NCBI RefSeq assembly: GCF_001984055.1
Contig: NZ_LYVO01000007.1
Location: 62,001 to 126,000, forward strand
Direction of reading: 5' to 3'
DNA: 64,000 bases
DNA from: Variovorax sp. KK3
Lineage (GTDB): Bacteria; Pseudomonadota; Gammaproteobacteria; Burkholderiales; Burkholderiaceae_C
Below the pieces are notes generated by a model, which saw only the letters and a list, made by a program, of their open reading frames with translations, was not told the DNA's origin and searched no databases. Position 1 is the first letter of the stretch. Every line of letters starts with the position of its first letter. Below are positions 10,367 through 46,358 of the stretch, piece by piece. A program made the translations under genes and the position numbers.

Positions 10367-10375
10367 CGCGGGGCG

Positions 10376-10401
10376 GTGAGCGCGGCTGCGTCGCCGCTCA
10401 C
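10376..10401. terminator. Possible hairpin between the Bug gene and the TetR gene
   Basis: GTGAGCG (10376-10382) and CGCTCAC (10395-10401) are perfect 7-base complementary arms. They lie just after the receptor stop and 12 bases before the TetR start. There is no T-run, so an operator for the TetR protein is as likely as a terminator. Confidence 0.3.
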
Positions 10402-10413
10402 TAGAATTCCGCG

Positions 10414-11154
10414 ATGGCTACGAGCAAGGTCGACAAGAACAACGAAGCGCAACGACGAACCTCGCGTGGTGCGCGCGGTGAAACCCGGCTGACGCGGTCC
10501 CAGATCCTCACGGAGGCGCTTCGCCTGGTCGACGAAGCCGGCATGGCGGCGCTGAACATGCGAGAGCTCGCGCGGCGGCTCGGCGTGTTCCCCACCAGCA
10601 TCTACTGGTACGTTCCGAGTCGGAATGAACTCGTGTCCGGCATGGTGGAGCTGGCCTTGTCGGACGTGGCCACGGACCTTCGCAACGGCGCCTGGCAGAC
10701 ACGGCTGCGGACCGTGCTGCGCCGCTTTCGCCGGGCCCTGCAGGCGCATCCGCATCTGGCCCACGTGATCGGTGCCGAGATGGTCAGCAACAGCGCGCTC
10801 GATCTCCCGCTGCTCGAATATATCGTCTCGGCATTGGAAGATGCCGGCTTCAAGGGCGCCGGCCTGGTCACGGCGTACAACACCGTCATCGCCGCGATGT
10901 GCGGTTTCGTGACCCTGGAGCTCGCGCCGCCGCCACCCGAAGACACGGCGGCGTGGGCCGGCAGCCTGCAAGAGGAAATGGCCTCGATCTCCCCCGCCGA
11001 GTACCCGGCACTGTCGAGGAACCTGAAGAACCTGGAGAACCGCGCGTTCGTTCTGCGCTGGTCCAGCGGTACCGAAAAGCCCATGGACTCGAGCTTCGAC
11101 CTCTGGGTCGACGTCATGATCCAGGGGCTCGCGCTGAAGGGCGCCGGTTCGTAG
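10414..11154 (+). CDS. TetR family transcriptional regulator
   Basis: 246 residues. The helix-turn-helix lies at about residues 28-75 (RSQILTEALRLVDEAGMAALNMRELARRLGVFPTSIYWYVPSRNEL), after an unusually basic and polar N-terminal extension. The long helical effector domain is of the type seen in TetR proteins with extended C-termini. It ends 5 bases from the convergent acetoacetyl-CoA synthetase gene, so it may control that operon or the Bug gene; neither is proven. Confidence 0.9.
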   Translation: MATSKVDKNNEAQRRTSRGARGETRLTRSQILTEALRLVDEAGMAALNMRELARRLGVFPTSIYWYVPSRNELVSGMVELALSDVATDLRNGAWQTRLRTVLRRFRRALQAHPHLAHVIGAEMVSNSALDLPLLEYIVSALEDAGFKGAGLVTAYNTVIAAMCGFVTLELAPPPPEDTAAWAGSLQEEMASISPAEYPALSRNLKNLENRAFVLRWSSGTEKPMDSSFDLWVDVMIQGLALKGAGS

Positions 11155-32217: not shown

Positions 32218-32817
32218 TCAGGCGGCCGCGGCAGGCGCATCGCCGCCCGCGCGGCTGCCGCTCAGCATCCGGCTGAACAGCCGGGCGGTCTTCGCATCGC
32301 AGGCCATGCCGTGGTCCAGGTGCACGTTCATGGCGAAGCCGTCGAAAGCCATCAGCACCACGCCCGCGATGATGCTTCCCTGCGCCGGCGGCACGTCGAG
32401 GCATTCGCCGATCCACTGCGCGACGCGCCCCTGGAACAGCTCGCGCAGGTGCGGGCTGTAGCTGTCGCTGACGCTGCTGGTCGACAGCGCTTGCATGATG
32501 TTCTTGGCGAAGCCGTTGGTTTCGCGCGGCAGGTCGCGCCATAGCGCCGTCAACAGCCGCTCGAGCCGTGCCTCGGGCGATGCGATGCGCTTGAGCGAGC
32601 GCTCCAGCTTCTCGAGCCGCTCGGTGAGCCAGGGCTCGTAGAGCGTGTACAGAACCTCCAGCTTCGACCCGAAATACACGTACACGTTGGCCGTCGAAAT
32701 ACCGGCTTCGCGCGCGATCGCCGGAATCGACGTGTCGATGTAGCCCTGTTCCGAGAACAGGCGAAAAGCCGCGTCGAGGATGGCCGTTCGGACGTCTTCT
32801 TTCTTTCGTTGTGACAT
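32218..32817 (-). CDS. TetR family regulator, probable repressor of the pyridine-type operon
   Basis: 199 residues; start at 32817 (MSQRKKEDVRTAILDAAF). The helix-turn-helix spans about residues 8-54 (FRLFSEQGYIDTSIPAIAREAGISTANVYVYFGSKLEVLY). The C-terminal domain is helical and ends in a short Ala tract. It is divergent from the NicX-like gene across 141 bases that hold a promoter and an inverted repeat, so control of the 12-gene run is likely. The inducer is probably an aromatic N-heterocycle, by inference. Confidence 0.92.
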   Translation of the reverse strand: MSQRKKEDVRTAILDAAFRLFSEQGYIDTSIPAIAREAGISTANVYVYFGSKLEVLYTLYEPWLTERLEKLERSLKRIASPEARLERLLTALWRDLPRETNGFAKNIMQALSTSSVSDSYSPHLRELFQGRVAQWIGECLDVPPAQGSIIAGVVLMAFDGFAMNVHLDHGMACDAKTARLFSRMLSGSRAGGDAPAAAA

Positions 32818-32866
32818 GTTGGTGCCGATCGTGTTCCGGGGTGGTGCGCCGCATTCTCTCAAAACT

Positions 32867-32877
32867 GAATGGTATTC
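32867..32877. promoter_or_regulatory. Candidate operator GAAT-GGT-ATTC
   Basis: A perfect inverted repeat with 4-base arms and a 3-base centre, five bases upstream of the -35 of the promoter below and 50 bases from the divergent TetR start. Its size and place fit a TetR operator. Confidence 0.45.
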
Positions 32878-32881
32878 GCTA

Positions 32882-32910
32882 TTGACACGCGAGAGCTTGA
32901 CTTCTAAATT
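32882..32910 (+). promoter_or_regulatory. Strong sigma-70 promoter for the NicX/molybdenum hydroxylase operon
   Basis: A perfect TTGACA (32882-32887), an ideal 17-base spacer and TAAATT (32905-32910, four of six consensus). Initiation would fall near 32917, about 40 bases before the first ATG. It is the best promoter seen in the window and directly follows the candidate operator. Confidence 0.65.
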
Positions 32911-32958
32911 TGTTGGAACGCTTCACGAACCTTCGACGACTCGTTCAGGAACCCCACG

Positions 32959-34038
32959 ATGATGCAAGCTGCCATCCGCACGCAAGAGCTCAACCCGGCG
33001 ATGCTCATGTCGCTCTTTCGCAAGCAGTTCGAGCTGTGCCGCGTCACGCCGGGCCAGACCGTGGCGATCGTCAGCGACCTGGGCACGCGGCGCGAATACA
33101 TCCAGGCCGCCTTCGCCGCGGCGAAGGACATCGGCTTCGACATCTACGAGATGTGCGTCAACGCGATTCCCGGCTGGACCAGCGTCGGCGTGCCGACCAT
33201 CGGCAAGTGCAAGGGCACGCTCGAGGCGCTGATGGCGGTCGACATGGTGCTGATCTTCCACGTGCCGCTGTTCTCCAAATGGCTGCGCGACGTGCAGGCC
33301 AAGGGCGTGCGCGTGCAGATGATCATCGACGCGCCGGACGACCTGTACCAGCTGCAGTCGCCTCCGGGCTTGAAGGAAGCCGTCCTCCATGCCACCGCGC
33401 TCTACAAGAAGACGCGCGAGGCGCGCGTCACGAGCAAGGCCGGCACCGACCTCACGTACCGCTGCGGCGAATACCCGGTGATGAGCCAGTACGGCATGGC
33501 CGACGAGCCCGGCCGCTTCGACCACTGGGGCGTGGGCCTGCTGCACACTTTTCCGAACGAAGGCAGCGCGCAGGGCAGGGTGGTGATTGCGCCCGGCGAC
33601 GTCATCATCCTTCCGTACTGCCGCTACGTGCAGGACGCGATCGAGATCGAGGTGCGCGAGGGCCACATCACGAGCATCGAGGGTGGCCTCGACGCGGCCC
33701 TCATGCGCGAATGGCTGGCCGAGGGCGAGGAACATGCGGGCGACCGCGACCCGTATGCGCTGTCGCACCTGGGCTGGGGCCTCAATCCGCAATGCCGCTG
33801 GGATTCGCTGGCGCTTTACGGCGACGCACCCGAGCGCAGCCGCGCCGCGGCGCGCAGCTTCCCCGGCAACTTCCTCTTCAGCACCGGCCCGAACACGCAA
33901 GGCGGCGGCAAGCGCACCACGCGCGGCCACTACGACGTGCCGATGCGCGGCTGCACCATCGCGCTCGACGGCAACGTGGTCATCAAGGACGGCCGCGTGG
34001 TCGACCCCGAGATGATCGTCAAGCGCGTGGCCCGCTGA
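32959..34038 (+). CDS. 2,5-dihydroxypyridine 5,6-dioxygenase-like protein (NicX family)
   Basis: 359 residues, the length of NicX/Hpo enzymes, which resemble M29 aminopeptidases in fold. NicX binds iron through His265, His318 and Asp320; here H270 (SHLGWGLNP) and H324/D326 (RGHYDVPM) keep the spacing and the His-x-Asp pattern. The enzyme opens the ring of 2,5-dihydroxypyridine to N-formylmaleamate. It is the first gene of a 12-gene run with a molybdenum ring hydroxylase and a formamidase-like hydrolase, which supports a pyridine-ring substrate. A related ring could be the true target. Confidence 0.82.
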   Translation: MMQAAIRTQELNPAMLMSLFRKQFELCRVTPGQTVAIVSDLGTRREYIQAAFAAAKDIGFDIYEMCVNAIPGWTSVGVPTIGKCKGTLEALMAVDMVLIFHVPLFSKWLRDVQAKGVRVQMIIDAPDDLYQLQSPPGLKEAVLHATALYKKTREARVTSKAGTDLTYRCGEYPVMSQYGMADEPGRFDHWGVGLLHTFPNEGSAQGRVVIAPGDVIILPYCRYVQDAIEIEVREGHITSIEGGLDAALMREWLAEGEEHAGDRDPYALSHLGWGLNPQCRWDSLALYGDAPERSRAAARSFPGNFLFSTGPNTQGGGKRTTRGHYDVPMRGCTIALDGNVVIKDGRVVDPEMIVKRVAR

Positions 34039-34073
34039 GGCGCTGCATCGACGCACGACAAGAAAGACACCCC

Positions 34074-34553
34074 ATGCTGATCGAAGGCCAATTCCCCATC
34101 GCCGCATCGCGCGAGGCGCTGATGGTCCACCTGTTCGACGCGGGCCTGATGGCCTCGTGCCTGCCCGGCTGCGAGAAGCTCGAAGCCATCGATGCCGACA
34201 GCTACCGCGCCGTCGTCGTCATTTCGATGGCGGGCATCAAGGCCCGCTTCAACCTCCAGGTCGCCATCACCCGACGCGATGAGCACAACGTCTGGGCCGT
34301 GACGCGCGGCGACGAAGGCGGCAAGGCGAGCAACCTGCAGGCCGACAGCCAGGTCAACCTCGAAGACGCGGCCGAGGGCACGCAGGTGCGCTACCGCTCC
34401 GAGGTGTCGGTGACGGGCCGGCTCGGCCGCTTCGCGCTCGGCATGATGAAGAAGAAGGCGCAGAGCATGGGCGACGAGTTCGCCGTCAACCTGCAGCGCA
34501 AGCTCGAACAGGTCGGTGCCGCGGCCGCCGCGCCCGCGCACGAAGGGCATTGA
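34074..34553 (+). CDS. CoxG/SRPBCC family protein
   Basis: 159 residues. The CoxG pattern is present: the opening FPIAASREALMVHLFDAGLMASCLPGCEKLE, the central strands YRAVVVISMAGIKARFNLQV and the closing helix with GRFALGMMKKKAQSMGDEFAVNLQRKL. CoxG-type proteins accompany molybdenum hydroxylases and are thought to help membrane attachment or maturation; in some clusters an SRPBCC protein is counted as a subunit. It lies directly before the three hydroxylase subunit genes, with two bases between its stop and the next ATG. Confidence 0.9.
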   Translation: MLIEGQFPIAASREALMVHLFDAGLMASCLPGCEKLEAIDADSYRAVVVISMAGIKARFNLQVAITRRDEHNVWAVTRGDEGGKASNLQADSQVNLEDAAEGTQVRYRSEVSVTGRLGRFALGMMKKKAQSMGDEFAVNLQRKLEQVGAAAAAPAHEGH

Positions 34554-34555
34554 AC

Positions 34556-35419
34556 ATGCCGACCCTGCAGGGGCTCTATCGCCCGAAGACCGTCGACGAG
34601 GCCACGGCCTTGCTGGCGCAGGATGCCGAGGCCAAGCCGCTGGCCGGCGGCGCGACGCTGGTCGCGATGCTCAATGCGCGGGTCATCGAGCCTGCCGCGC
34701 TCATCAGCCTGGCGGACATCGACGAGATCAAGGGCATTTCGGTACTCGCCGATGGCCGCGTGCGCATCGGCGCCTTCACGCGGCATCGCGACACCGCCGC
34801 GTGCACGCTGGCGCTGGGTGCGGCCGGCGTGGTGCCGCATGCCGCCTCGCAGATCGCGAACGCGACGGTGCGCAACATGGGCACCATCGGCGGGTCGATC
34901 TCGTTCGCCGATCCGGGGCTCGACTATCCGCCGGCGCTCGTCGCCGCGGGCGCGGTCATCGAGATCGCGTCCGTCGACGGACGGCGCACCGTGCCCGCGG
35001 CCGAGTTCTTCGTCGACTGGTACCTGACCGCGCTCGAACCCGGCGAAATGGTCACGGCCGTGCTGCTGCCGCCGCCGGACCACGGCGTGGGCATCTACGT
35101 CAAGCATGCGCGCGTGGCCGGGGACTACGCCACCGCCTCGGTCGCGGCCTGCCTGCACGACGATGGGCGCATTGCCATCGCGGTGGGCGCGTGCGGCCCC
35201 ACCCCCTTGTCCGACGCCGAGGCCGATACGCTGCTGTCGTCCGACCGCAGCGATGCGGCCATCGCGCGCGCGGCCAAGATGCTGGAGCAGCGCGCCGACC
35301 CGCTCGACGACGTGCGCGGCAGTGCCGACTACCGGCGCCTGTTGATTCCCCGCCTGCTGTCGCGCGCGGTGCGTGCGGTGGAGGCCTCGTCGGCAACATC
35401 GCAGCGGAGCATGGCATGA
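34556..35419 (+). CDS. Molybdenum hydroxylase FAD subunit (xanthine dehydrogenase family subunit M)
   Basis: 287 residues; the ATG at 34556 is preferred to the TTG at 34550. FAD-binding motifs of the CoxM/CutM type are visible: PLAGGATLVAMLNAR (about 29-43) and NATVRNMGTIGGSISFADPG (about 102-121). It passes electrons from the iron-sulphur subunit to an acceptor. The stop overlaps the ATG of the small subunit (ATGA at 35416-35419). Gene order is medium, small, large, the CO-dehydrogenase-like arrangement. Confidence 0.93.
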   Translation: MPTLQGLYRPKTVDEATALLAQDAEAKPLAGGATLVAMLNARVIEPAALISLADIDEIKGISVLADGRVRIGAFTRHRDTAACTLALGAAGVVPHAASQIANATVRNMGTIGGSISFADPGLDYPPALVAAGAVIEIASVDGRRTVPAAEFFVDWYLTALEPGEMVTAVLLPPPDHGVGIYVKHARVAGDYATASVAACLHDDGRIAIAVGACGPTPLSDAEADTLLSSDRSDAAIARAAKMLEQRADPLDDVRGSADYRRLLIPRLLSRAVRAVEASSATSQRSMA

Positions 35420-35910
35420 GCAGCGCGACGACCCTCGTCACGCTCGACGTGAACGGCAACGAAGCCCAGGTCCCGGCCGCGCTTCACGACACGATGCTCA
35501 CCGTGCTGCGCGACGGCCTGCAATTGACCGCTGCCAAGCGAGGCTGCAACCAGGGCGTGTGCGGCGCCTGCACCATCAGCATCGACGGCGTGCCGATGCG
35601 CGCCTGCCTGAGCCTGGCCCATGCCTGCGAGCATGCCGAGGTGCGCACGCTCGAAGGCTTGCAGGGTGGTCGCGAGATGCGCGCCCTGCAGGCGGCTTTC
35701 GCCCGATCGGGCGCGTTTCAGTGCGGCTTCTGCACCGCCGGCATGCTGGTCGCTGCGCACGCGCTGCTGCAACGCGACCCCGCGCCCGACGAGCAGGCGG
35801 TGCGCAAGGCGCTCTCCGGCAACCTGTGCCGCTGCACCGGCTACGTCAAGATCATCGAGGCGGTGCAACACGCCGCGCGGTCGCTGCAGCCCGAAGGAGT
35901 CGCATCGTGA
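35416..35910 (+). CDS. Molybdenum hydroxylase 2Fe-2S subunit
   Basis: 164 residues, the normal length for the small subunit. Both clusters are intact: the plant-type cluster by C44, C49, C52 and C64 (RGCNQGVCGACTI and MRACL), and the second, helical-domain cluster by C103, C106, C138 and C140 (QCGFCTAGM and GNLCRCTGY). It relays electrons from the molybdenum site to FAD. It overlaps the genes on both sides by four bases. Confidence 0.96.
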   Translation: MSSATTLVTLDVNGNEAQVPAALHDTMLTVLRDGLQLTAAKRGCNQGVCGACTISIDGVPMRACLSLAHACEHAEVRTLEGLQGGREMRALQAAFARSGAFQCGFCTAGMLVAAHALLQRDPAPDEQAVRKALSGNLCRCTGYVKIIEAVQHAARSLQPEGVAS

Positions 35911-38300
35911 GCGGCACCGTCATGCAGCCGCCGCGTGCGCGCGAGGCCGCCGAGGAAGACGAGTTCCGCGGCGCCGTCGGCCAGGCCATCCCGCAGCTCG
36001 AAGCCGACGAGAAGCTCACCGGCTCCGCGCAATACATCGCCGACATCTACCGCCCCGGCATGCTCTTCGGGGCGATCCTGCAGAGCCCCGTGGCGCATGC
36101 GCGCATCCGCGGCTACGACCTCGCCGAGGCGCTGGCTCTGCCGGGCGTGCGCGCCATCGTCACGGGCGACGACTTGAACGATGCCCACAAGATGGGCGCC
36201 TTCATCAAGGACGAGCCGGCCTTCGCGAAGGGCAAGGTGCGCTACGTCGGCGAAATCGTCGCCGCCGTGGCCGCCGACACCGAGGCCATCGCGCGCCAAG
36301 CCACGCGGCTGATCCGCGTCGACTACGAAGAGCTGCCCGCGGTGCTCGACCCCGAGCAGGCGCTGGCGCCCGGTGCTGCGCTGGTGCACGACGATGCGGC
36401 CTCCTACGTGTCGGTGTTCGACTCCGGCACCGACGGCAACCTGTGCTCGCGCACCTCCTTCCGCGCCGGCGATGCCGACGCGGCATGGGCCGATTGCGAC
36501 GTCGTCGTCGAGGGCCACTACCAGACCCAGGCCCAGGCCCACCTGTCTCTGGAGCCCTGCGGTGCGCTCGCCGAGGTCGATGCGGCCGGCCGCGTCACGC
36601 TGTGGTCGGCCAACCAGTCGGTGTTTCGCGTGCAGGCCAGCGTCTGCGAATCGCTGGGCCTGCCGATGACGCGGCTGCGCTCGCTCACCCCGCGCATCGG
36701 CGCCGGCTTCGGCAACAAGATGGAAGCGCACGTGCAGCCGGCGGTGGTGCTGCTGGCGCTCAAGGCGCGCCGGCCCGTCAAGCTCATCCTGAGCCGCGAG
36801 GAAGACTTCGAGACGGTGCGCGCGCGCCACCCGGCCACCATCCGCATCAAGACCGGCGCGAAGCGCGACGGCACGCTGGTCGCGCGCGAGGTCGAGCTGC
36901 TGCTCGACGGCGGCGCCTACGGCGACGACAGCCCCGGCGTGCTGGGCTATGCGCTGCTGATGAACTGCGGGCCCTACCGCATTCCGCACGTCCATGCCCA
37001 TGGCCGCGTGGCCTACACCAACAAGCTGCGCTTCGGCGCCTTCCGCGGCTTCGGCGTGCCGCAAATGACTTTCGCGTCCGAGACGCAGCTGGACGAGATC
37101 GCGCGTCGCTTGTCGATGGACCCGATCGCCTTGCGCCGCCGGAACATGCTGATGGGCGACGACCCGTGGTTCGGTGGCCAGCCCATTCTTTCGAACGGCC
37201 TCGCGGAATGCGTGGACCTGGTCGACAAGGCATCGGGCTGGGCCGCAAGGGCGACGGCAAGCGCGTCGCAGCCCGGCCGCCGCCGCGGTTTCGGCGTGGC
37301 CCTCACCGCCCACATCAGCGGCCTGCTGGCTTCGGGCGCCATCGTGCGCATGCTCGAAGACGGCACCGTGCTGCTCAACACCGGCGCGGTCGACATCGGG
37401 CAGGGCTCCAACACCGTGCTCACGCAGATGTGCGCGGAGGCGCTCAAGCTGCCGGTGGAGCGCGTGGCCATCGCCAGCCCCGACACCGACGGCTCGCCCT
37501 ACAACTGGGGCACCACCGCCAGCCGCGTCACCTACGTGGCCGGCCGCTCGGTGGTCGGCGCGGCGGCCGAGGTGGAAGGCAAGCTCAAGGAGCATGCGAG
37601 CCAGATGCTCGAATGCGCGGTGGACGATCTCGAACTGCTGCCCGGCGGCAAGGTCGCGATCAAGGGCGTGTCGCAGCGCGCGGTGAGCTTTGCCGAGATA
37701 TCCGGCCGCGCCCACTGGGCCGCCGGAGGCCCGATCATCGGCACGCACAGCTGGGTGTTCGACCAGAAGACCATCGACCCGAAGCGCGCCGTCGCGCAGG
37801 GGCTGCCGTTCCCGCAGATCGGCATCTATTCGTTCAACGCGATGGTGGTGGAGGTCGAGGTCGACGATGCCACGGGCAAGGTGCGCGTGGTCAACGCATG
37901 GTCGGCCTGCGACATAGGCCGCGCCATCAACCCGACCCTGGCCACGGGCCAGATCGAAGGCGCCTTCGTGCAGGGCATGGGCTACGCGCTCACCGAAGAA
38001 ATGGTGTGGGACGGCCCGCGGCTCGCCAACCCGAGTCTGATGGACTACAAGATCCCGACCATGGCCGAGCTGCCAGAGAGCCTGCGTGCCTACATCGTCG
38101 AATCGAACGAGCCCAGCGGGCCCTTCGGCGCGAAGAGCGTAGGCGAGATCGGCATCAACGGCGTCGCCGCGGCCATCGCCAACGCGGTGGCCGATGCGAC
38201 CGGCGTGCAGTTGCACCAGTTGCCGCTGACGGCCGAGCGCGTGCTGCGCGGCTTGTTGGCGCAGGAGCAAGAGCAAGCGAAGGCGGAGGCCGCATCGTGA
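35907..38300 (+). CDS. Molybdenum hydroxylase large (molybdopterin) subunit
   Basis: 797 residues from a GTG overlapping the small-subunit stop. Motifs: LTGSAQYIADI at the start of the a/b hammerhead domain, GAGFGNKMEAHVQPAVVLLALKARRPVKLILSREE split over the cofactor-binding domain, GAFRGFGVPQ, GQGSNTVLTQM, and GPFGAKSVGEIGING, in which Glu747 is the catalytic base of the family. It should hydroxylate an N-heterocyclic ring next to nitrogen or a related carbon. Hydroxylating a 3-hydroxypyridine-type ring would yield the substrate of the NicX-like enzyme; this link is inference. No XdhC/MobA-type maturation gene is adjacent. Confidence 0.94.
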   Translation: MSGTVMQPPRAREAAEEDEFRGAVGQAIPQLEADEKLTGSAQYIADIYRPGMLFGAILQSPVAHARIRGYDLAEALALPGVRAIVTGDDLNDAHKMGAFIKDEPAFAKGKVRYVGEIVAAVAADTEAIARQATRLIRVDYEELPAVLDPEQALAPGAALVHDDAASYVSVFDSGTDGNLCSRTSFRAGDADAAWADCDVVVEGHYQTQAQAHLSLEPCGALAEVDAAGRVTLWSANQSVFRVQASVCESLGLPMTRLRSLTPRIGAGFGNKMEAHVQPAVVLLALKARRPVKLILSREEDFETVRARHPATIRIKTGAKRDGTLVAREVELLLDGGAYGDDSPGVLGYALLMNCGPYRIPHVHAHGRVAYTNKLRFGAFRGFGVPQMTFASETQLDEIARRLSMDPIALRRRNMLMGDDPWFGGQPILSNGLAECVDLVDKASGWAARATASASQPGRRRGFGVALTAHISGLLASGAIVRMLEDGTVLLNTGAVDIGQGSNTVLTQMCAEALKLPVERVAIASPDTDGSPYNWGTTASRVTYVAGRSVVGAAAEVEGKLKEHASQMLECAVDDLELLPGGKVAIKGVSQRAVSFAEISGRAHWAAGGPIIGTHSWVFDQKTIDPKRAVAQGLPFPQIGIYSFNAMVVEVEVDDATGKVRVVNAWSACDIGRAINPTLATGQIEGAFVQGMGYALTEEMVWDGPRLANPSLMDYKIPTMAELPESLRAYIVESNEPSGPFGAKSVGEIGINGVAAAIANAVADATGVQLHQLPLTAERVLRGLLAQEQEQAKAEAAS

Positions 38301-39139
38301 AGCTCGAACTCTATCCCCCGCAGGAGCCGCTGTCGCCGCTGGGCCAGGCCTACCAGGCGCGCATCATGGCGCTGGGCGAGGGCGTACAAGGCCATGAAGC
38401 CGCCTATGGCGACGATCCCTACCAGTCGCTGGCCGTGTTCCCTGCGATCGATCCGAGCGGCGACGTGCTGGTCTTCTTGCACGGCGGCGGCTGGACCAGC
38501 GGCTACAAGGAGTGGATGTACTTTATGGCGCCCGCACTCACTGCGGCGGGCGTGACGCTGGTCAGCGCAGGCTACCGGCTGGCACCGGGTCATGTGTTCC
38601 CCGCGGGCTTCGAAGACGCAGCCGATGCGGTCGCCTGGGTGTATCGCCACATCGAAGCGCATGGCGGCGACCCGCAACGCATCTTCGTCGGCGGCCATTC
38701 GGCAGGCGGCCACTACGCGGCACTGCTCGCGGTGTCCTCGGCCTGGCGGCAGGCGAGGGCGCTGCCGTCGGATGTGCTGCGCGGCTGCCTGCCGGTGTCA
38801 GGCGTGTATCGCTTCGGCGAAGGCAGCGGGCTCAACGTGCGGCCGCGCTTCCTGGGCATCGGCGACGAAGCGCAGGTCGACGCCGCGGCTTCACCGATGC
38901 AGCGCATCGAGCGCGCAGCCTGCCCGCCGTTCCTGATCACCCACGGCACCCGCGACTTTCCGCACCTGATCACGCAGGCGCAGCAAATGCAGGCGGCGCT
39001 GCTGGCCGCCGGCGTTCCCGTGCAAGCCCACGTGCTCGAAGGCGCAGACCACTTCGATGCGAGCGTCGCCTGTGGCGACCCGTCCTCGGAATGGCCGGCA
39101 CTCGCAGCAGCGTGGATGCACCGCATCCGCAAGCCCTGA
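38297..39139 (+). CDS. Alpha/beta hydrolase, formamidase-like
   Basis: 280 residues from a GTG overlapping the large-subunit stop. The HGGGW motif (62-66) matches the HGGxW oxyanion signature of kynurenine formamidases; the nucleophile is S135 in GGHSAGGH, and the acid and histidine are in THGTRDFPH and GADHFDA. In a pathway with a NicX-like enzyme, the expected next step is removal of formate from N-formylmaleamate, so a formamidase-type hydrolase here is a good fit. Carboxylesterase activity remains possible. Confidence 0.85.
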   Translation: MKLELYPPQEPLSPLGQAYQARIMALGEGVQGHEAAYGDDPYQSLAVFPAIDPSGDVLVFLHGGGWTSGYKEWMYFMAPALTAAGVTLVSAGYRLAPGHVFPAGFEDAADAVAWVYRHIEAHGGDPQRIFVGGHSAGGHYAALLAVSSAWRQARALPSDVLRGCLPVSGVYRFGEGSGLNVRPRFLGIGDEAQVDAAASPMQRIERAACPPFLITHGTRDFPHLITQAQQMQAALLAAGVPVQAHVLEGADHFDASVACGDPSSEWPALAAAWMHRIRKP

Positions 39140-39179
39140 GCCGGCGCACCGAACCCACCTCGTCAACAGGAGAACCAAG

Positions 39180-40388
39180 ATGCAGAGCCCCACTTCGAAT
39201 CGCAGGCTGGTCGTGAGCGCCATGGCCTCGATCGCCGCCCTGGCCTTCATGGCGGCGGCGCCCGCCGCGCGTGCGCAGGCCGACAAGCCGGTGCGCATCG
39301 GCTTCTCGATGGCGCGAACCGGCATGCTGGCCAACGCCACGCCTTCGCAGTCGAACACCTACGAGCTGTGGAAGGAGCAGGTCAACGCGCGCGGCGGGCT
39401 CGACGTGGGCGGGCAGAAGCGCCGGGTGGAGTTCGTCACCTACGACGACCAGTCGAAGCCGGAGCAGGCCGTGCGCATCTACGAGAAGCTGATCACCGAC
39501 GACAAGGTCGACCTGCTGCTCGCGCCCTGGGGCACGCCCTTCCAGATCGCCATCGCGCCGGTGCTGGAGAAATTTAAGTTCCCGATGGTCGGCAACACCG
39601 CGGCCTCGGTCGCGCTGCGGCAGGTGAAGCCGGGCTACATCTGGTTCCCGACCTCGGCCATTCCCGACCGCATCGGTGTGGAACTCACGGCGATGCTGAA
39701 GGCCAACAACGTCAAGACGGCCGTGGTGCTGGCCAACGTGCTGCCTTTCACCAAGGAGATCAAGAACTACCTCGAGCCCGAGCTCAAGAAGGCCGGCATC
39801 GAGATCAAGCTCTCCACCGAGTACCCGCCGGACATCAAGGACATGACCTCGATCCTCACGCAGGTGAAGCAGGCCAACCCCGATGCGGTGCTGGCGCTGG
39901 CCTACCCGGGCGATTCGGTGCTCTATGCCAAGCAGGCCAAGGAGCTGGGGCTGGCGAGCCCGGTGCAGTTCATCGCCATCGGCCCGAGCGATGCCTTCTT
40001 CGCGAAGGCCGTGGGCACCTCGGCCGCAGAAGACGTGATCACCATCGCCCACTGGTCGCCGCGGCCCGAATGGAAAGGCTCGCAGGCCTTCCACGACGCC
40101 TACGTGAAGAAGTTCGGCGAAGACCCCGACTACCTGAACTCCGCGCTGGCGTGGATGTCGCTCGAGATCCTGGAGACGGCGGTCGCCAAGAATGGGCTCG
40201 ACAAGCCGAAGATCCGCGAGACCATCAGCAAGGACACCTTCGAGACCATCAACGGCAAGGTCAAGTTCGAAGGCGTGCAGAACTCGATCACGCCCACCGC
40301 CTTCGTGCAGACGCAGAAAGGCAAGCTGCAGATCATCTGGCCGCAGTCGATCGCGACCGGCAAGTACGCGCCCAAGAAGTCCTGGTAG
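39180..40388 (+). CDS. Liv-type ABC transporter substrate-binding protein
   Basis: 402 residues: signal peptide to about residue 33 (MASIAALAFMAAAPAARAQA), then the type I periplasmic-binding fold (VRIGFSMARTGMLANATPSQ, VEFVTYDDQSKPEQAVRIYEKLI, VDLLLAPWGTP). This family imports amino acids, amides, urea and also aromatic acids. Its place inside the hydroxylase operon makes the pathway substrate or a related carboxylated ring the likely ligand rather than leucine. Confidence 0.93.
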   Translation: MQSPTSNRRLVVSAMASIAALAFMAAAPAARAQADKPVRIGFSMARTGMLANATPSQSNTYELWKEQVNARGGLDVGGQKRRVEFVTYDDQSKPEQAVRIYEKLITDDKVDLLLAPWGTPFQIAIAPVLEKFKFPMVGNTAASVALRQVKPGYIWFPTSAIPDRIGVELTAMLKANNVKTAVVLANVLPFTKEIKNYLEPELKKAGIEIKLSTEYPPDIKDMTSILTQVKQANPDAVLALAYPGDSVLYAKQAKELGLASPVQFIAIGPSDAFFAKAVGTSAAEDVITIAHWSPRPEWKGSQAFHDAYVKKFGEDPDYLNSALAWMSLEILETAVAKNGLDKPKIRETISKDTFETINGKVKFEGVQNSITPTAFVQTQKGKLQIIWPQSIATGKYAPKKSW

Positions 40389-40391
40389 CGC

Positions 40392-41291
40392 ATGCCTATC
40401 GTCGACGTGCTCACGTCGGGGCAGCTGCTTTTCGCTGCCCTGGTCACGGGGTCGGTCTACGCGCTGGTCGCGCTCGGGCTCAACCTGGTCTACGGCACGA
40501 TGCGCATGCTCAACGTGGCGCACGGCGACCTGGTCATGCTGGGCGCCTACGCGGCCTACTGGGCCTTCAGTATCGCCGGCATCTCGCCGCTGCTCGCCGC
40601 GCCCGTGGTGGCCGGCCTGGGCGCGCTGCTCGGCTGGGCGCTGTACCGCGGGCTCTTTCGCCGGCTGCTCGCGGTGGCGCCTGCCGATGCGGGCCGCATG
40701 GAGGGCAACTCGCTGCTGCTCTTCTTCGGGCTGTCGATCATCCTGCAGAACGCGGCGGCCATGCTCTTCACGCCGAACAACCGCGCCATCCAATATCTCG
40801 ACGAGGTCTGGCGCGTCGGCAACGTCGCAATGACGGGTAACCGCATCGCCACCTTGCTGCTGGCCGGCACCACCTGCATCGGCATCGCGCTGTTCCTGGC
40901 GCGCAGCACGGCCGGCCTGGCGATGCGCGCGGTGATCGAGCGGCGCGAGGCGGCCTACATCGTCGGCGTCGACGTCGACCGCGTGCAGTGGGGCAGCTTC
41001 GCGCTGGGCTTCGCCAGTGCCGCGCTGGCCGGCGTGCTGATGTCGATGCTCGAACAGTTCTCGCCGTTCTCGGGCTTCCCGTTCACCATCGCGGGCTTCA
41101 TCGTGATCATCCTCGGCGGCCTGGGCAACGTGATGGCCGGGCTGGTGGCGGCGTTGCTGCTCGGCGTGATCGAAACCTACGGCGTCGCCCTGACGTCGGC
41201 CAACCTCCGCTCCGTGCTGCTCTATGGATGCTTCGTCGCCGCGCTCCTCCTCTTTCCCAACGGCCTCCTTGCCCGCACGGCCCGCCGTTGA
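40392..41291 (+). CDS. Liv-type ABC transporter permease (LivH-like)
   Basis: 299 residues with eight or so membrane helices. Typical LivH segments are GLNLVYGTMRMLNVAHGDLVMLGAY split near residues 30-54 and GFASAALAGVLMSM, followed by the late IILGGLGNVMAGLVAALLLGV. It starts three bases after the binding-protein stop and forms the membrane channel with the next gene. Confidence 0.95.
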   Translation: MPIVDVLTSGQLLFAALVTGSVYALVALGLNLVYGTMRMLNVAHGDLVMLGAYAAYWAFSIAGISPLLAAPVVAGLGALLGWALYRGLFRRLLAVAPADAGRMEGNSLLLFFGLSIILQNAAAMLFTPNNRAIQYLDEVWRVGNVAMTGNRIATLLLAGTTCIGIALFLARSTAGLAMRAVIERREAAYIVGVDVDRVQWGSFALGFASAALAGVLMSMLEQFSPFSGFPFTIAGFIVIILGGLGNVMAGLVAALLLGVIETYGVALTSANLRSVLLYGCFVAALLLFPNGLLARTARR

Positions 41292-41292
41292 C

Positions 41293-42237
41293 ATGAAGCT
41301 CCCACGCAGCGAGCGCGCCTGGCTGTCCGTGCTGGCCGCCGGCGTGGTGGCGCTCGCGGCGCTGCCTTTCGTGGCCAACGACTACCTGGTCGGCACCGGG
41401 CTCACGCTGCTGATGTGGCTCGCGCTCACGCAGAGCTGGTGCGTGCTGTCGAAGATGACGGGCTACGTGTCGCTCGGCCACGTGGTGTTCTACGGCCTGG
41501 GCGCCTACCTGATGGTGGTGACCTGGCAGCAGCTGCCCTTCGTGCTGGTCATCCTTTTCGCCGGTGGGCTGGCCGCAGCCTTCGCGGCGCTGGTCGGGCT
41601 GCCGGTGCTGCGCGTCAAGGGGCCGTACTTCGTGATCCTCACCTTCGGCCTGGCCGAGCTGGTGAAGTTCAGCATCATGGCGGGCGAGGCCGCCAGCGGC
41701 ACCGCGAGCCGCATCCTCTTCGGCACGCCCGACCTGGTGGTCGTGTACTTCCTGATGTTCGCGCTGGCATTGCTGGCCACCGGGCTGCTCACCTGGGTCA
41801 GCCGCTCGCGCTTCGGCCACGGCCTGCGCTCGCTGCGCGAGAACGAAGAGGCGGCCGAGACGCTGGGCGTGCCGGTGGTGCGCTTCAAGCTGCTGGCCTT
41901 CGTGCTGTCGGCCGCCATTCCGGGCATGGTCGGTGCGGTGATGGCCTTGCGCTCCACCTACTTCGTGGTGGGCGGCGTGTTCGATCCGATGATCTCCATC
42001 ACCGTGATCGCGATGGCCATCCTCGGCGGTGGCGACAACGCGAAGGGGCCGCTGCTCGGCGTGGTGTTCCTGTTCGCCATCCAGGAGCTGCTGTGGGCGC
42101 ATGCGCCGCTGCTCTACATGATCATCCTCGGCGCGATCCTCATCACCTTCGTGCTGGTGCTGCCGAACGGGCTGGTGGGGCTGCCCGAGGCCTGGGCACG
42201 ACGGCGCACGGCGCGTGCGTCGGGAGATCGAGCATGA
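41293..42237 (+). CDS. Liv-type ABC transporter permease (LivM-like)
   Basis: 314 residues, multiple helices. LivM segments visible are GYVSLGHVVFYGLGAYL (about 56-72), RVKGPYFVILTFGLAEL, and the cytoplasmic coupling loop SRFGHGLRSLRENEEAAETLGV with VTVIAMAILGGGDNAKGPLLG near the end. It begins directly after the first permease and its stop overlaps the ATG of the ATPase gene. Confidence 0.95.
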   Translation: MKLPRSERAWLSVLAAGVVALAALPFVANDYLVGTGLTLLMWLALTQSWCVLSKMTGYVSLGHVVFYGLGAYLMVVTWQQLPFVLVILFAGGLAAAFAALVGLPVLRVKGPYFVILTFGLAELVKFSIMAGEAASGTASRILFGTPDLVVVYFLMFALALLATGLLTWVSRSRFGHGLRSLRENEEAAETLGVPVVRFKLLAFVLSAAIPGMVGAVMALRSTYFVVGGVFDPMISITVIAMAILGGGDNAKGPLLGVVFLFAIQELLWAHAPLLYMIILGAILITFVLVLPNGLVGLPEAWARRRTARASGDRA

Positions 42238-42965
42238 GTCCCTTGCTGGCCGTGCGCGGCCTGGGCAAGCGCTTCGGCGGGCTCACGGCGCTGCACGGCG
42301 TCTCGTTCGAGGTGCCGGCCGGGCACATCGTCGGGGTGATGGGCGCCAACGGGGCCGGCAAGACCACGCTGTTCAGCCTGATCGCCGGCAACACGCGGCC
42401 CAGCGAGGGCCGCATCGACTTCGACGGCACGCCCATCGTCGGCCTGCGGCCGGACCAGATCTGCCGGCTGGGCGTGGCGCGCACTTTCCAGATCGTCAAG
42501 CCCTTTCCGTCGCTCACGGTGCTGGAGAACCTGCGCACCGGTGCGATGTTCGGGCATGCGCAGTTGCATCGGCGCCAGGATGCCGACGCCGCGTCGATGC
42601 AGGTGCTCGACGAGGTCGGCCTGGCCGACGTGGCGCACCGGGCCGCGTCGTCGCTCACGCTGTCGGGGCAGAAGCGGCTGGAGATCGCGCGCTGCGTGGC
42701 CACCGGCGCGCGGCTGCTGCTGCTCGACGAAGTGATGGCGGGGCTCACGCCGACGGAGGTCGGGCAGATGCTCCAGACGCTGCGGCGCATGCAGGCTGCG
42801 CGCGGGCTCACGCTGCTGGTCATCGAGCACGTGATGCGGGCGCTGATGGAGTTGTGCGGGCGAATCGTGGTGTTGCACCACGGGGAGCTGATCGCGGAAG
42901 GGACGCCGGCGGAGATCGGGGAGAACGAGAAGGTGCTGTCGGTCTACTTCGGAGCGCATGCATGA
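42234..42965 (+). CDS. Liv-type ABC transporter ATPase (LivG-like)
   Basis: 243 residues. Walker A GANGAGKTT (about 38-46), the LivG segment GVARTFQIVKPFPSLTV, a signature reading LSGQKRLEIAR (normally LSGGQ-like with an insertion-free SYGQQR in LivG) and Walker B LLLLDEVMAGLTP with H-loop IEHVM. It starts by ATGA overlap with the permease and its stop overlaps the next ATPase. The slightly unusual signature is common in this branch and should not prevent activity. Confidence 0.95.
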   Translation: MSPLLAVRGLGKRFGGLTALHGVSFEVPAGHIVGVMGANGAGKTTLFSLIAGNTRPSEGRIDFDGTPIVGLRPDQICRLGVARTFQIVKPFPSLTVLENLRTGAMFGHAQLHRRQDADAASMQVLDEVGLADVAHRAASSLTLSGQKRLEIARCVATGARLLLLDEVMAGLTPTEVGQMLQTLRRMQAARGLTLLVIEHVMRALMELCGRIVVLHHGELIAEGTPAEIGENEKVLSVYFGAHA

Positions 42966-43678
42966 CCCCCGCCATGCTCGAAATCGATTCGCTCGTCACC
43001 GGCTACGGCCAGACAAGGGTCGTGCACGGCCTCACGATGCAGGTCCGCGAGGGCGGCGTCACCGCGCTGCTCGGCGCCAACGGCGCCGGCAAGACCACGC
43101 TGATGAAAACGCTCTGCGGCCTGCTTCCCGTGCAATCCGGCGCGCTGCGCTTTCTCGGTGAAGACATCGCCAAGGTCGCCGCCAACCGCCGCGTGCTCTC
43201 GGGCCTAGTACTGGTGCCCGAGGGCCGCATGGTCTTCCCCTCGCTCACGGTGCACGAGAACCTGCGCCTGGGCGGCATCAACGACCGCGCACGGCCGCGC
43301 TGGCGGCAGAACGTCGACCGGGTGTTCGACATCTTCCCGCGCCTGCGCGAGCGCAGTGCGCAGCAGGCGGTGACGCTGTCGGGCGGCGAGCAGCAGATGC
43401 TGGCCGTCGGACGCGGCCTCATGGCCGAGCCCAAGCTGATGCTGCTCGACGAGCCCACGCTGGGCTTGGCCCCGGTGATGGCGCTCGAGATCTTCGCGCT
43501 CGTGCGCCGGCTGGCCGCGGACGGGCTCACGCTGCTGCTGGCCGAGCAGGATGTGCAGCGCACGCTCGACGTCGCGACCCATGCCTACGTCGTCGAGAAC
43601 GGCCGCATCGCCGCCGAAGGCCCGGCCGCGGACATCGCCGGCGATCCGCGCATCCGGCAGGCTTACCTAGGACTTTGA
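42962..43678 (+). CDS. Liv-type ABC transporter ATPase (LivF-like)
   Basis: 238 residues. Walker A GANGAGKTT (about 37-45), the LivF-specific VPEGRMVFPSLTVHENL, signature LSGGEQQMLAVGR and Walker B LMLLDEPTLGLAP. It completes a full five-gene importer (binding protein, two permeases, two ATPases) within the operon. The second hydrolase follows after two bases. Confidence 0.95.
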   Translation: MTPAMLEIDSLVTGYGQTRVVHGLTMQVREGGVTALLGANGAGKTTLMKTLCGLLPVQSGALRFLGEDIAKVAANRRVLSGLVLVPEGRMVFPSLTVHENLRLGGINDRARPRWRQNVDRVFDIFPRLRERSAQQAVTLSGGEQQMLAVGRGLMAEPKLMLLDEPTLGLAPVMALEIFALVRRLAADGLTLLLAEQDVQRTLDVATHAYVVENGRIAAEGPAADIAGDPRIRQAYLGL

Positions 43679-43680
43679 CC

Positions 43681-44535
43681 ATGACCCCCACCACCCATCG
43701 CACCTATCGCATTCCCGGCACGCCCGCATTGGCCGTCGACCTGGCAGCCGACGTGGCGCCCGGCCCGCTCGCGCTCTTCATGCACGGCATCGGCGGCAAC
43801 CGCGGCAACTGGCGCGCGCAGCTGCCGGTGTTCGCGCCGCACTTCTCGTGCGTGGCCTGGGATGCACGCGGCTACGGCGGCAGCGATGACTACGACGGCC
43901 CGCTCGCCTTCGACGACTTCGTGGGCGACGTGCTGCGCGTGCTCGACCACTTCGGCGTGCAGCGCGCGCACCTGGTCGGCCTGTCGATGGGCGGCCGCAT
44001 CGCGATGCGCACGGCGCTGCTGCACCCCGAGCGCATCGCCACGCTCACGCTGCTCGACACGCACGAAGGCTTCGAAGCCTTCACGCCGCAACAGCGCCAG
44101 GCTTTCGTCGACAGCCGGCGCGCGCCGCTGCTGGCGGGCCAGGCGCCGGCCGACATCGCCGATGCCGTGGCGCGCTCGCTGGTCGGCCCGAAGGCCACGC
44201 CTGCGCAGTTGCAGCAGCTGGTCGACAGCATCGCCGCGCTGCACAAGGATTCGTACATCAAGTCGCTGCAGGCCACGGTAGAACAGGTCACGCTGGGCGA
44301 CATCTCGCAGATCGGCGCGCCGGCCCACTTCGTCGTCGGCGCCGACGACCGCCTGACGCCGCCCGCCATGCATCACGAGATGGCTGCCAAGCTCGGCGGC
44401 GCACCGGTCAGCGTGCTGCCCGATGCGGGGCACCTCAGCAACATCGAGAACGCCGAGGCCTTCAACCGGGTGGCGCTCGACTGGCTTCTGCCGCGTGCCG
44501 GCCTGGGCGACGTGCCCACCCGCTGGCCGCTGTAG
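43681..44535 (+). CDS. Alpha/beta hydrolase, enol-lactonase/deformylase-like
   Basis: 284 residues from the ATG at 43681, two bases after the LivF-like stop. The oxyanion segment MHGIGGNRGNW, nucleophile GLSMGGR (Ser at about 103), acid VVGADDRLTP and histidine DAGHLSNIE are intact. The overall pattern resembles 3-oxoadipate enol-lactonases and the N-formylmaleamate deformylase NicD. As the last gene of the run, it is the second candidate for the deformylation step; which hydrolase does what cannot be told from sequence. Confidence 0.88.
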   Translation: MTPTTHRTYRIPGTPALAVDLAADVAPGPLALFMHGIGGNRGNWRAQLPVFAPHFSCVAWDARGYGGSDDYDGPLAFDDFVGDVLRVLDHFGVQRAHLVGLSMGGRIAMRTALLHPERIATLTLLDTHEGFEAFTPQQRQAFVDSRRAPLLAGQAPADIADAVARSLVGPKATPAQLQQLVDSIAALHKDSYIKSLQATVEQVTLGDISQIGAPAHFVVGADDRLTPPAMHHEMAAKLGGAPVSVLPDAGHLSNIENAEAFNRVALDWLLPRAGLGDVPTRWPL

Positions 44536-44538
44536 TCG

Positions 44539-45458
44539 CTACGACGCCGCGGTGCCCGTGCGCGGCAGCAGGGCCGGCACCAGCGGCCGGTCGAGCCGGT
44601 CGCGCCACCAGCGCAGCGCACGGCCTTCGCTGCCGGTCTTCCAGGCGAGCCAGAAGGTCTCGGGCGCGCGCGGCTCCTCGGTGGCCAGCTCCACCAGCGA
44701 GCCGCGCGCCAGCTCGCCAGCGATGCAGGCGCGCGGCAGGTGGCCATGGCCCAGGCCCTCGACCTGGCAGGCGATCTTGGCGGCCATGCTGGGCACGGCG
44801 ATGCGCGGCTGCCCGGCCAGCAGGCCCACGGTGCGGTCCGAGGAGGTGCGCGCGCTGTCGCCGACCACGATGGCGTTGCAGTGGATCAGGTCGCCGCGCT
44901 GCAAGGGCTGGTCGAGCCGGGTGAGGGGATGGGTGGGCGCGACGCAGAAGGCGAAGTCCAGGCTGCCCACGTTCACCGCCTGGTAGCCGCCGCCGGCCGG
45001 CCCCTCGCCGGCGGCGATCACGATGCGGCGCGGCCTTCGCGCAGCGCCTCCCAGGTGCCGGTGAGCGCCTCGCAGCCGATGCGCAGGCGCGTGCCGCAGC
45101 GCAGGTCTTCGAAGGCGCGGATGTCGCCGATCAGCGCCTGGGTGGGAATCAGCGAGTCGTGCACCAGCCGCAGCTCCGACTCGTAGCCGGTGGCGATCTG
45201 CCGCATGCGCGATTCGAGGTCGCGGGCCGCGGTGAGCAGCCAGCGGCCCTCCTTGAGCATTTCGTCGCCCGCCGACGTGAGCGTGACGCGCGGGCCGTTG
45301 CGCTCGAAGAGCTGCATGCCGAGCTGCTCCTCGAGCTTGCCCACCGCGTACGAGATGGTCGAAGGCACCTTGTTGAGCCGCACGGCGGCCGCGGCGAACG
45401 ACCCGTGGCGGGCGATGGCATCCACGAGTTCGATGGCTTCGAGGGAAAGCTTGAGCAT
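44539..45458 (-). pseudogene. LysR family regulator, interrupted by a frameshift near 45025
   Basis: The first 141 residues or so (start ATG at 45458, MLKLSLEAIELVDAIARHGS) form a normal LysR helix-turn-helix and the opening of the effector domain, then the frame stops at 45018. The missing part of the effector domain continues in another frame from about 45026 down to 44539 (IVIAAGEGPAGGGYQAVNVG onward, ending GTAAS). A single missing base in the GGCCGCGCCGCATCG stretch (minus strand; expected GCC GAC ATC or similar) explains it. It is divergent from the YcaC-like operon, which it probably once controlled. A sequencing error is possible. Confidence 0.82.
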
Positions 45459-45704: not shown

Positions 45705-46358
45705 ATGACCGTCAAAGCCACCCCCACCGCCGGCGCCAAGCTGCTCACGCCCACCGACCACACGCTGGTGATGATCGACTTCCAGTCGCAGATGGCCTTC
45801 GCCACGCACTCGATCGACGCAGTGACCCTGCGCAACAACGCCGCGCTGGTGGCACAGGCGGCCGCGGGCTTCAAGGTGTCGACCATCCTGACCACCGTCG
45901 CCGAAAAAAGCTTCTCGGGCCCGATGTTCGGCGAGATCACCGACGCCTTCCCGGGCCAGAAGCTGCTCGACCGCACGTCGATGAACACCTGGGAAGACGC
46001 GGCCGTCATCGACGAAGTCAACCGCATCGGCAAGCCGCGCATCGTGCTGTCGGGCCTGTGGACCAGCGTGTGCATCGTCGGCCCGGCGCTGTCGGCGCTG
46101 GACCAGGGCTTCGAGGTCTACGTGATCGCCGACGCTTGCGGCGACGTGTCGGCCGAAGCGCACAACCGCGCGATGGACCGCATGGTGCAGGCCGGCGCAC
46201 GCCCCATGACCTCGCTGCAATACCTCCTGGAGCTGCAGCGCGACTGGGCCCGCGGCGACACCTACGACCTCACCACCGGCATCGCGAAGAAGGTGGGCGG
46301 CGCGTACGGCCTTGGCATCACCTACGCCAAGAGCATGTTCAACGCCCACGAAGGCTGA
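45705..46358 (+). CDS. Isochorismatase-family cysteine hydrolase, YcaC-like
   Basis: 217 residues; the ATG at 45705 has an AGGAG seven bases upstream and is preferred over the ATG at 45681. The catalytic triad of the family is visible: D25 (VMIDFQSQM), K68 (VAEKSF) and C123 (GLWTSVCIVG). The C-terminal extension (ARGDTYDLTTGIAKKVGGAYG) is typical of the YcaC group. Substrates of this group are not well defined; maleamate or another amide is conceivable given the neighbouring pathway. It starts an operon with XapX, an amidohydrolase, DoxX and an MFS protein. Confidence 0.88.
   Translation: MTVKATPTAGAKLLTPTDHTLVMIDFQSQMAFATHSIDAVTLRNNAALVAQAAAGFKVSTILTTVAEKSFSGPMFGEITDAFPGQKLLDRTSMNTWEDAAVIDEVNRIGKPRIVLSGLWTSVCIVGPALSALDQGFEVYVIADACGDVSAEAHNRAMDRMVQAGARPMTSLQYLLELQRDWARGDTYDLTTGIAKKVGGAYGLGITYAKSMFNAHEG

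Follow-up and report, generated by a model that had tools for sequence, protein, structure and literature searches.

A conserved operon of Variovorax and other bacteria predicted to import and open an N-heteroaromatic ring

The genome of Variovorax sp. KK3 (RefSeq assembly GCF_001984055.1; 7.19 Mb) encodes, on contig NZ_LYVO01000007.1 (hereinafter C7), an operon of 12 tightly packed plus-strand genes that combines a dioxygenase of the NicX superfamily, a molybdenum hydroxylase, two alpha/beta hydrolases and an ATP-binding cassette (ABC) importer. All coordinates refer to the window, that is, the 64,000-nucleotide stretch analyzed here (positions 62,001 to 126,000 of the contig), in which the operon extends from 32959 or 32962 to 44535; by locus sequence, its nearest relatives are from Variovorax. 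There is good support for assigning these genes to an operon for N-heteroaromatic catabolism, and likewise for the combination of a molybdenum hydroxylase, NicX-family ring opening and the operon's own importer that was proposed in a previous interpretation of the same DNA without database searches (the sequence-only reading). The operon is a real, conserved system for N-heterocycle uptake and ring opening; the pathway class is sound, with the named intermediate and route not established.

Our preferred interpretation, to which we assign a probability of roughly 0.6 for the entire proposed pathway, is that TetR controls an operon for the catabolism of a hydroxylated N-heteroaromatic, most likely a compound with a 3-hydroxypyridine-type ring. 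The importer would bring in the compound, and the CoxG-associated hydroxylase, containing molybdenum, flavin adenine dinucleotide (FAD) and 2Fe-2S clusters, would add a water-derived oxygen at the position that is adjacent to the ring nitrogen and para to the hydroxyl already present. The Fe(II) dioxygenase would then open the ring by breaking the bond that links the hydroxylated carbon to the carbon adjoining the nitrogen, and an alpha/beta hydrolase with an HGGGW motif would cleave the N-acyl product. The product would be independent of the canonical NicD-NicF-MaiA set. The order of these reactions, like the substrate class and the direction of transport, is a prediction, and the ring may well be something other than plain 2,5-dihydroxypyridine.

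The NicX-like dioxygenase and the residue at position 177

The first gene of the operon (32962..34038, plus strand; ATG start at 32959 or 32962) encodes a protein that matched none of the Pfam and NCBIfam models and aligned over nearly its full length (residues 12-351 of 358) with the 2,5-dihydroxypyridine 5,6-dioxygenase NicX of Pseudomonas putida (7cn3; E = 7.4e-66). Its iron ligands are H269, S307, H323 and D325 in the 358-residue numbering; the correspondence of H270, H324 and D326 to H265, H318 and D320 of NicX, noted in the sequence-only reading, holds for the 359-residue start, and the fourth ligand, S302, is kept too. Altogether, the protein retains the NicX positions H265, S302, H318, D320, R293 and H189. 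Among 101 homologs, H265, H318 and D320 are invariant (101/101), and S302 and R293 are each present in 100.

In NicX, Glu177 forms hydrogen bonds with N1 and O1 of 2,5-dihydroxypyridine, and the Glu177Ala variant retains 2.7% activity (PMC7910607). Within the substrate-contact pair E177 and H189, the window protein retains H189 and has Gln in place of E177. In a midpoint-rooted tree of 101 sequences, drawn mostly from genomes picked for carrying the clade of the window, this protein belongs to a 64-member clade (support 1.0) with Gln177 in 62 members, an in-frame stop in one (L025; relative loci are denoted by L and a number) and Ser in one (L114, on a haloarchaeal plasmid). The branch that includes NicX of P. 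putida KT2440 (25 sequences, support 0.975) has Glu in 21 and Gln in four (L076, L111, L123 and L124, the last of which also lacks S302 and H189). Glu177 is found in all 14 sequences that are either KT2440 NicX itself or share at least 71% identity with the second copy of the Variovorax genome, encoded on contig C14 (see below). In the third group of the family, which consists of 12 sequences, the residue is Val, Gly or Ile in 11, all with a PcaD-like hydrolase nearby, and Gln in one. Residue 177 tracks the branches well, not cleanly, and Gln arose or persisted more than once. The identification of 2,5-dihydroxypyridine as the ring that is cleaved is not established given the prevalence of Gln177 in the clade, though Gln is not exclusive to it.

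We tentatively suggest, at rather less than even odds, that the NicX superfamily comprises at least three substrate classes, marked by clade and, for the most part, by Glu, Gln or Val/Gly/Ile at position 177, and that members of the Gln clade act on another N-heteroaromatic ring, opening it in a self-contained pathway that bypasses maleamate and is widely shared among soil and marine bacteria.

Position 105 is occupied by Phe in 63 of the 64 members of the window's clade and in 19 of the 25 sequences of the KT2440 branch, and so does not separate the two; His is found in all 12 members of the third group (L035 6439, L048 3157, L130-L133 and L135-L139 among them, with Val, Gly or Ile at position 177). 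Several variants were observed. In L025 (Ruegeria lacuscaerulensis, 10001-11074), the in-frame stop is aligned with residue 177, indicating either a pseudogene or a sequencing error. L026 (1165 and 2284) and L031 (3028 and 4213) each have two NicX-like genes in tandem, all from the Gln177 clade, with 55-58% and 76% identity to the window protein. L124 (G022:C17) contains an operon-like set that consists of a NicX-family gene, Liv genes and a three-subunit molybdenum hydroxylase, all of different subfamilies.

The hydroxylase, the hydrolases and the importer

The Pfam and NCBIfam scan covered ten proteins, namely the TetR regulator, eight of the 12 operon proteins and a YcaC-like neighbor, and four proteins were compared with PDB sequences; all Pfam matches named here are above the gathering cut-offs. 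Downstream of the dioxygenase gene, on the same strand, are genes for a CoxG/SRPBCC protein (34074..34553; COXG, E = 4.7e-18) and for the FAD (34556..35419; FAD_binding_5, E = 2.7e-44, and CO_deh_flav_C), 2 x [2Fe-2S] (35416..35910; Fer2_2, E = 1.5e-29; motifs CNQGVCGAC, CGFC and CRCTG) and molybdopterin (35922..38300; Ald_Xan_dh_C and MoCoBD_1/MoCoBD_2, E about 1e-78) subunits of a hydroxylase. The three subunits carry the usual motifs of the xanthine oxidase family. Among solved structures, the molybdenum subunit is nearest to 4-hydroxybenzoyl-CoA reductase (1rm6), followed by quinoline 2-oxidoreductase (1t3q), and the CoxG protein is probably the membrane anchor of the enzyme. Six contexts of paralogous molybdenum subunits include three with hydantoinase-type and two with isochorismatase-type genes, families that were recognized by eye.

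The first alpha/beta hydrolase (38297..39139, plus strand; Abhydrolase_3, E = 1.7e-28, and BD-FAE) contains both HGGGW and GHSAG motifs. The sequence-only reading had described it as a formamidase-like hydrolase with HGGxW; the motif is there, but the label does not hold, the nearest relatives being HSL/BD-FAE-type esterases, and no match named formamidase appears among the 60 of the 206 PDB matches listed. This enzyme probably hydrolyzes the ring-fission product. The second hydrolase (43681..44535, plus strand; Abhydrolase_1, E = 1.7e-30) is PcaD-like, scoring 133.8 bits against the PcaD model, below the cut-off of 255.85. An abh2-like or NicD hydrolase is found near other NicX-family genes in 12 of 19 contexts.

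The Liv-type (HAAT) ABC importer is complete. It consists of a periplasmic substrate-binding protein (39180..40388; Peripla_BP_6, E = 5.1e-56), LivH-type (40392..41291) and LivM-type (41293..42237) permeases, and LivG-type (42234..42965; Walker A motif GANGAGKT) and LivF-type (42962..43678; Walker A and LSGGE motifs) ATPases, all on the plus strand. The permeases and ATPases were assigned by sequence, motifs and position, and the positions of all four are kept in relatives. The sequence-only reading noted a dedicated importer as an addition to hydroxypyridine clusters; that such an addition is unusual is not established, as five of 19 other NicX-family gene contexts hold four or five Liv genes.

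Gene layout and upstream region

As stated in the sequence-only reading, the 12 genes lie on one strand with small gaps or overlaps: gaps of 35, 2, 40, 3, 1 and 2 bases, together with five overlaps of 4 bases, so that the measured gaps are 1-40 bases. One of the overlaps follows from a possible GTG start of the molybdenum subunit gene at 35907; the ATG at 35922 would leave a gap of 11.

A divergent TetR-family regulator (32218..32817, minus strand; TetR_N, E = 1.6e-15) precedes the operon. Its start, the ATG of MSQRKKEDV, was chosen by comparison with relatives, and the reading frame is open to TTG at 32862. Of the 56 relative loci whose upstream sequence extends 0.9 kb or more, 42 have a TetR gene (identity of 30% or more) no further than 12 kb away. 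Position 32867, at which the sequence-only reading began the region, is not the start of a gene and turned out to be the first base of an operator-like palindrome, GAATGGTATTC (32867..32877), which is the single GAATnnnATTC in the 64-kb window and sits between the TetR gene and a sigma70-type promoter-like site, TTGACA-N17-TAAATT (32882..32910, plus strand), read from the sequence. In 18 of 58 loci, GAATnnnATTC occurs in the roughly 260 bases that precede the NicX-like gene; at its background frequency of 0.027 per kb, about 0.4 would be expected. It is present in all twelve loci L003-L014 and in some alphaproteobacterial loci (for example, L022 and L025), and is invariant in seven of seven aligned intergenic regions. 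The palindrome is probably, and most simply, the TetR operator. Under a looser pattern, promoter-like sites were found in 15 of the 58 loci, a count given without a computed background.

Downstream, a LysR-type regulator (44539-45458, minus strand) has its halves in two reading frames, so that either the gene is broken or the sequence contains an error, and adjoins a divergent gene for a YcaC-like isochorismatase-family hydrolase (45705-46358). Both were considered as operon members and rejected for lack of recurrence near the operon in 59 relative loci. The LysR gene was searched as two separate pieces since a single query is in frame only over the first half; the first piece yielded one short match (50 residues, L014), and neither the second piece nor the YcaC-like protein yielded any in the 59 loci.

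Canonical nic genes and the maleamate route

The same genome encodes, on contig C14 (L062, 8669-17489), a canonical NicX-NicD-NicF-MaiA cluster that also includes an amidohydrolase (a possible decarboxylase), Rieske oxygenase subunits and a ferredoxin reductase, the genes being named by eye except where homology searches identified them. This is a second pyridine-type pathway of the genome, and its NicX is 55% identical to that of KT2440. Neither an amidase (NicF) nor NicD nor a maleate isomerase is present among the 12 operon genes. The previously noted absence of a NicC-type flavin monooxygenase from these 12 genes is confirmed; no search for NicC extended beyond them to the remaining genome.

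We compared 45 genomes that we selected from the set yielding the 59 loci, leaving out 14 loci that were mostly located on short contigs, and used identity cut-offs that we set; the NicF figures are from among the matches listed. NicD (E of 1e-30 or better) was found in 12 of these genomes and is absent from 33. Canonical NicX (at least 71% identity to the C14 copy) is present in the same 12, split at contig ends in one genome and with an internal stop in another. MaiA (at least 60%) is present in 13 and absent from 32, and NicF-like proteins (at least 50%) are present in 26. These presence tests weaken the filing of the operon as a maleamate-route cluster, and, with no amidase or isomerase in the operon and 33 genomes without NicD and canonical NicX, the maleamate route of the sequence-only reading is not established. 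In several alphaproteobacteria, a NicF relative (51-64%) is encoded next to a racemase-like protein that is about 28% identical to MaiA. Such a pair could fulfil the same function, and the maleamate route is therefore possible, though not required by the observations.

The strongest rival explanation is a variant of the 3-hydroxypyridine (3hpd) system in which 3-hydroxypyridine, or a close relative, would be converted through 2,5-dihydroxypyridine and N-formylmaleamate to maleamate, with the amidase and isomerase supplied from elsewhere, here by NicF and MaiA on C14. We consider this unlikely, if by no means negligible. It would fit the molybdenum hydroxylase with a separate CoxG protein, as proposed for the four-component HpdA (PMC11962113), the NicF-like proteins in 26 of the 45 genomes, and Gln177 in four sequences of the KT2440 branch, one of which (L111) is annotated as a 2,5-dihydroxypyridine dioxygenase. 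Against it stand the 18 genomes with neither NicF (at least 50%) nor MaiA (at least 60%) among the matches listed and the 33 without NicD; the co-occurrence of canonical NicX in 12 genomes also speaks against redundancy. In addition, the operon lacks the phosphoenolpyruvate (PEP)-utilizing partner that 3hpd is said to have.

Conservation and variation among relatives

The 59 relative loci came from a scan of genome contigs; gene presence was scored within 12 kb on either strand and gene order on the plus strand, with the identity thresholds for gene counts set after a first look at the data. The complete set of ten genes, for CoxG, the FAD, 2Fe-2S and molybdenum subunits, hydrolase 1, the substrate-binding protein and LivHMGF, follows in this order in 22 of the 43 loci for which 9.5 kb or more of downstream sequence is available; in four further loci (L037, L038, L044 and L058), the flank ends inside the Liv genes. 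The search for the same gene order that had been recommended thus shows recurrence from Variovorax to Ruegeria. Taken singly, the molybdenum subunit is encoded in 29 of these 43 loci; 36 have hydrolase 1, and 26 have LivHMGF. Hydrolase 2 (at least 60% identity) is found in only six of the 59 loci within the flanks covered, and further downstream for L008 (L101) and not for L010 (L100); it is an accessory, variable component, the HGGGW hydrolase being more conserved. The operon clade is a patchy trait, present in eight of 101 genomes of the genus and, counting its own, in three of 250 genomes sampled from the order.

The hydroxylase belongs to most, not all, versions of the operon. In the seven Pusillimonas-type loci (L017, L020, L023, L027, L028, L030 and L032), the molybdenum set is never beside the NicX-like gene, hydrolase 1 is nearby in six and Liv genes in three; three Defluviicoccus loci have the dioxygenase and Liv genes only. 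The molybdenum subunit (E of 1e-180 or better) is encoded in 30 of the 45 genomes. Recurring extra genes proved a poor guide to the substrate, most of the 45 clusters listed resembling shadows of operon genes, read antisense or out of frame; the exceptions are a gentisate-dioxygenase-like cupin and a CUT2-type importer, the latter in four loci (L032, L033, L052 and L061). One distinct cupin subfamily occurs in L035 (11105-12142), L048 (11101-12135), L052 (14427-15401) and L061 (14491-15465).

Several observations weigh against the pathway that we favor. H189 is lost in three of the 64 clade members. Gln177 also appears in four of the 25 KT2440-branch and one of the 12 third-group sequences, so that Gln alone does not exclude 2,5-dihydroxypyridine as the substrate. 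For NicX, no activity on other substrates is reported (PMC7910607), so that a different ring is deduced from gene context and one residue. In 17 of the 45 genomes, this molybdenum hydroxylase is not beside the NicX-like gene (15 lack it genome-wide at E of 1e-180, and two, from Defluviicoccus, have a 55-57% copy elsewhere), so the pairing of dioxygenase and hydroxylase is not obligatory. Finally, in seven loci without this type of molybdenum enzyme, a gentisate-dioxygenase-like cupin near the NicX-like gene could point to homocyclic substrates.

The cupin is also central to another alternative, which we regard as improbable, namely that the substrate of the dioxygenase is a carboxylated or trihydroxylated ring, such as an aza-analogue of gentisate; this would account for both Gln177 and the nearby cupin genes. 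The cupin is near the NicX-like gene in seven of the 59 loci, and four of these proteins form one subfamily (63-78% identity to L035), but it is unmatched in the window and in every full-operon locus, and the adjacency may merely mark aromatic-catabolism islands. A chance neighborhood of an amino-acid Liv importer and an unrelated oxidoreductase set is highly implausible: Liv importers are common and accompany NicX-like genes without the molybdenum enzyme in L053, L054 and L057, but the recurrence of the same order in Burkholderiales, Rhodobacterales and other alphaproteobacterial genomes shows that the grouping is not due to chance, as do the four-base overlaps and the single promoter-like site with its conserved palindrome.

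Implications

A literature search of titles and abstract openings, in which subscription journals were thinly covered, found no account of this operon. If the pathway is as proposed here, a widespread and apparently uncharacterized N-heterocycle pathway of soil and marine proteobacteria becomes testable, with importer, hydroxylase, ring opener and hydrolase encoded in a single operon that has a readable operator-like site; residue 177 would offer a direct handle on substrate recognition in the NicX family. It would also call for caution with automatic names, given that superfamily members are publicly annotated as 2,5-dihydroxypyridine 5,6-dioxygenase or leucyl aminopeptidase.

Comparison with known systems

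By architecture, the closest precedent is the four-component 3-hydroxypyridine dehydrogenase HpdA, which reportedly feeds 2,5-dihydroxypyridine to a dioxygenase. The 3hpd cluster is said to need a PEP-utilizing protein and pyruvate phosphate dikinase (PPDK); the window operon appears to differ in having neither, and it further differs in lacking downstream maleamate genes and in including the Liv importer. Both systems seem to share a four-component hydroxylase with a separate SRPBCC/CoxG protein; in PMC11962113, which cites Wang et al. 2020 (AEM 86:e01313-20) for 3hpd/HpdA, a CoxG homolog is proposed as the anchor of the Ensifer adhaerens HP1 enzyme. The PEP-utilizer signature occurs once in the 1.95 Mb of loci plus window (L052, about 8 kb from the NicX-like gene) and in none of 20 fetched contexts; the Variovorax genome has two matches, both on other contigs. 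We looked for the reference 3hpd cluster in five plasmid contexts of molybdenum subunits (Ensifer, Shinella, Caballeronia, Diaphorobacter and Arthrobacter), all of which proved to be other systems; the best plasmid-borne relatives are 38% identical to the window subunit.

The mimosine (PydA) and 4-hydroxypyridine (KpiC) routes employ other ring-opening enzymes (PMC7356986). Vitamin B6, trigonelline, pyrimidine and 2,3,6-trihydroxypyridine were also considered as possible substrates.

The nic cluster comprises NicAB, NicC, NicX, NicD, NicF and NicE. The window operon resembles it in combining a molybdenum hydroxylase, NicX-type ring opening and an alpha/beta hydrolase, and differs from it in lacking NicC, NicD, NicF and an isomerase and in having a three-subunit hydroxylase with CoxG in place of NicA/NicB. 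The C14 cluster contains a paralogous ring-opening dioxygenase (39% identity to the window protein) and, unlike the window operon, has E177, NicD, NicF, MaiA, and amidohydrolase and Rieske oxygenase genes. The window protein is about 37% identical to KT2440 NicX (7cn3; PMC7910607), a member of the same superfamily, and has its four iron ligands together with H189 and R293; it is set apart by Gln in place of E177, by membership in a separate, strongly supported clade and by different gene partners.

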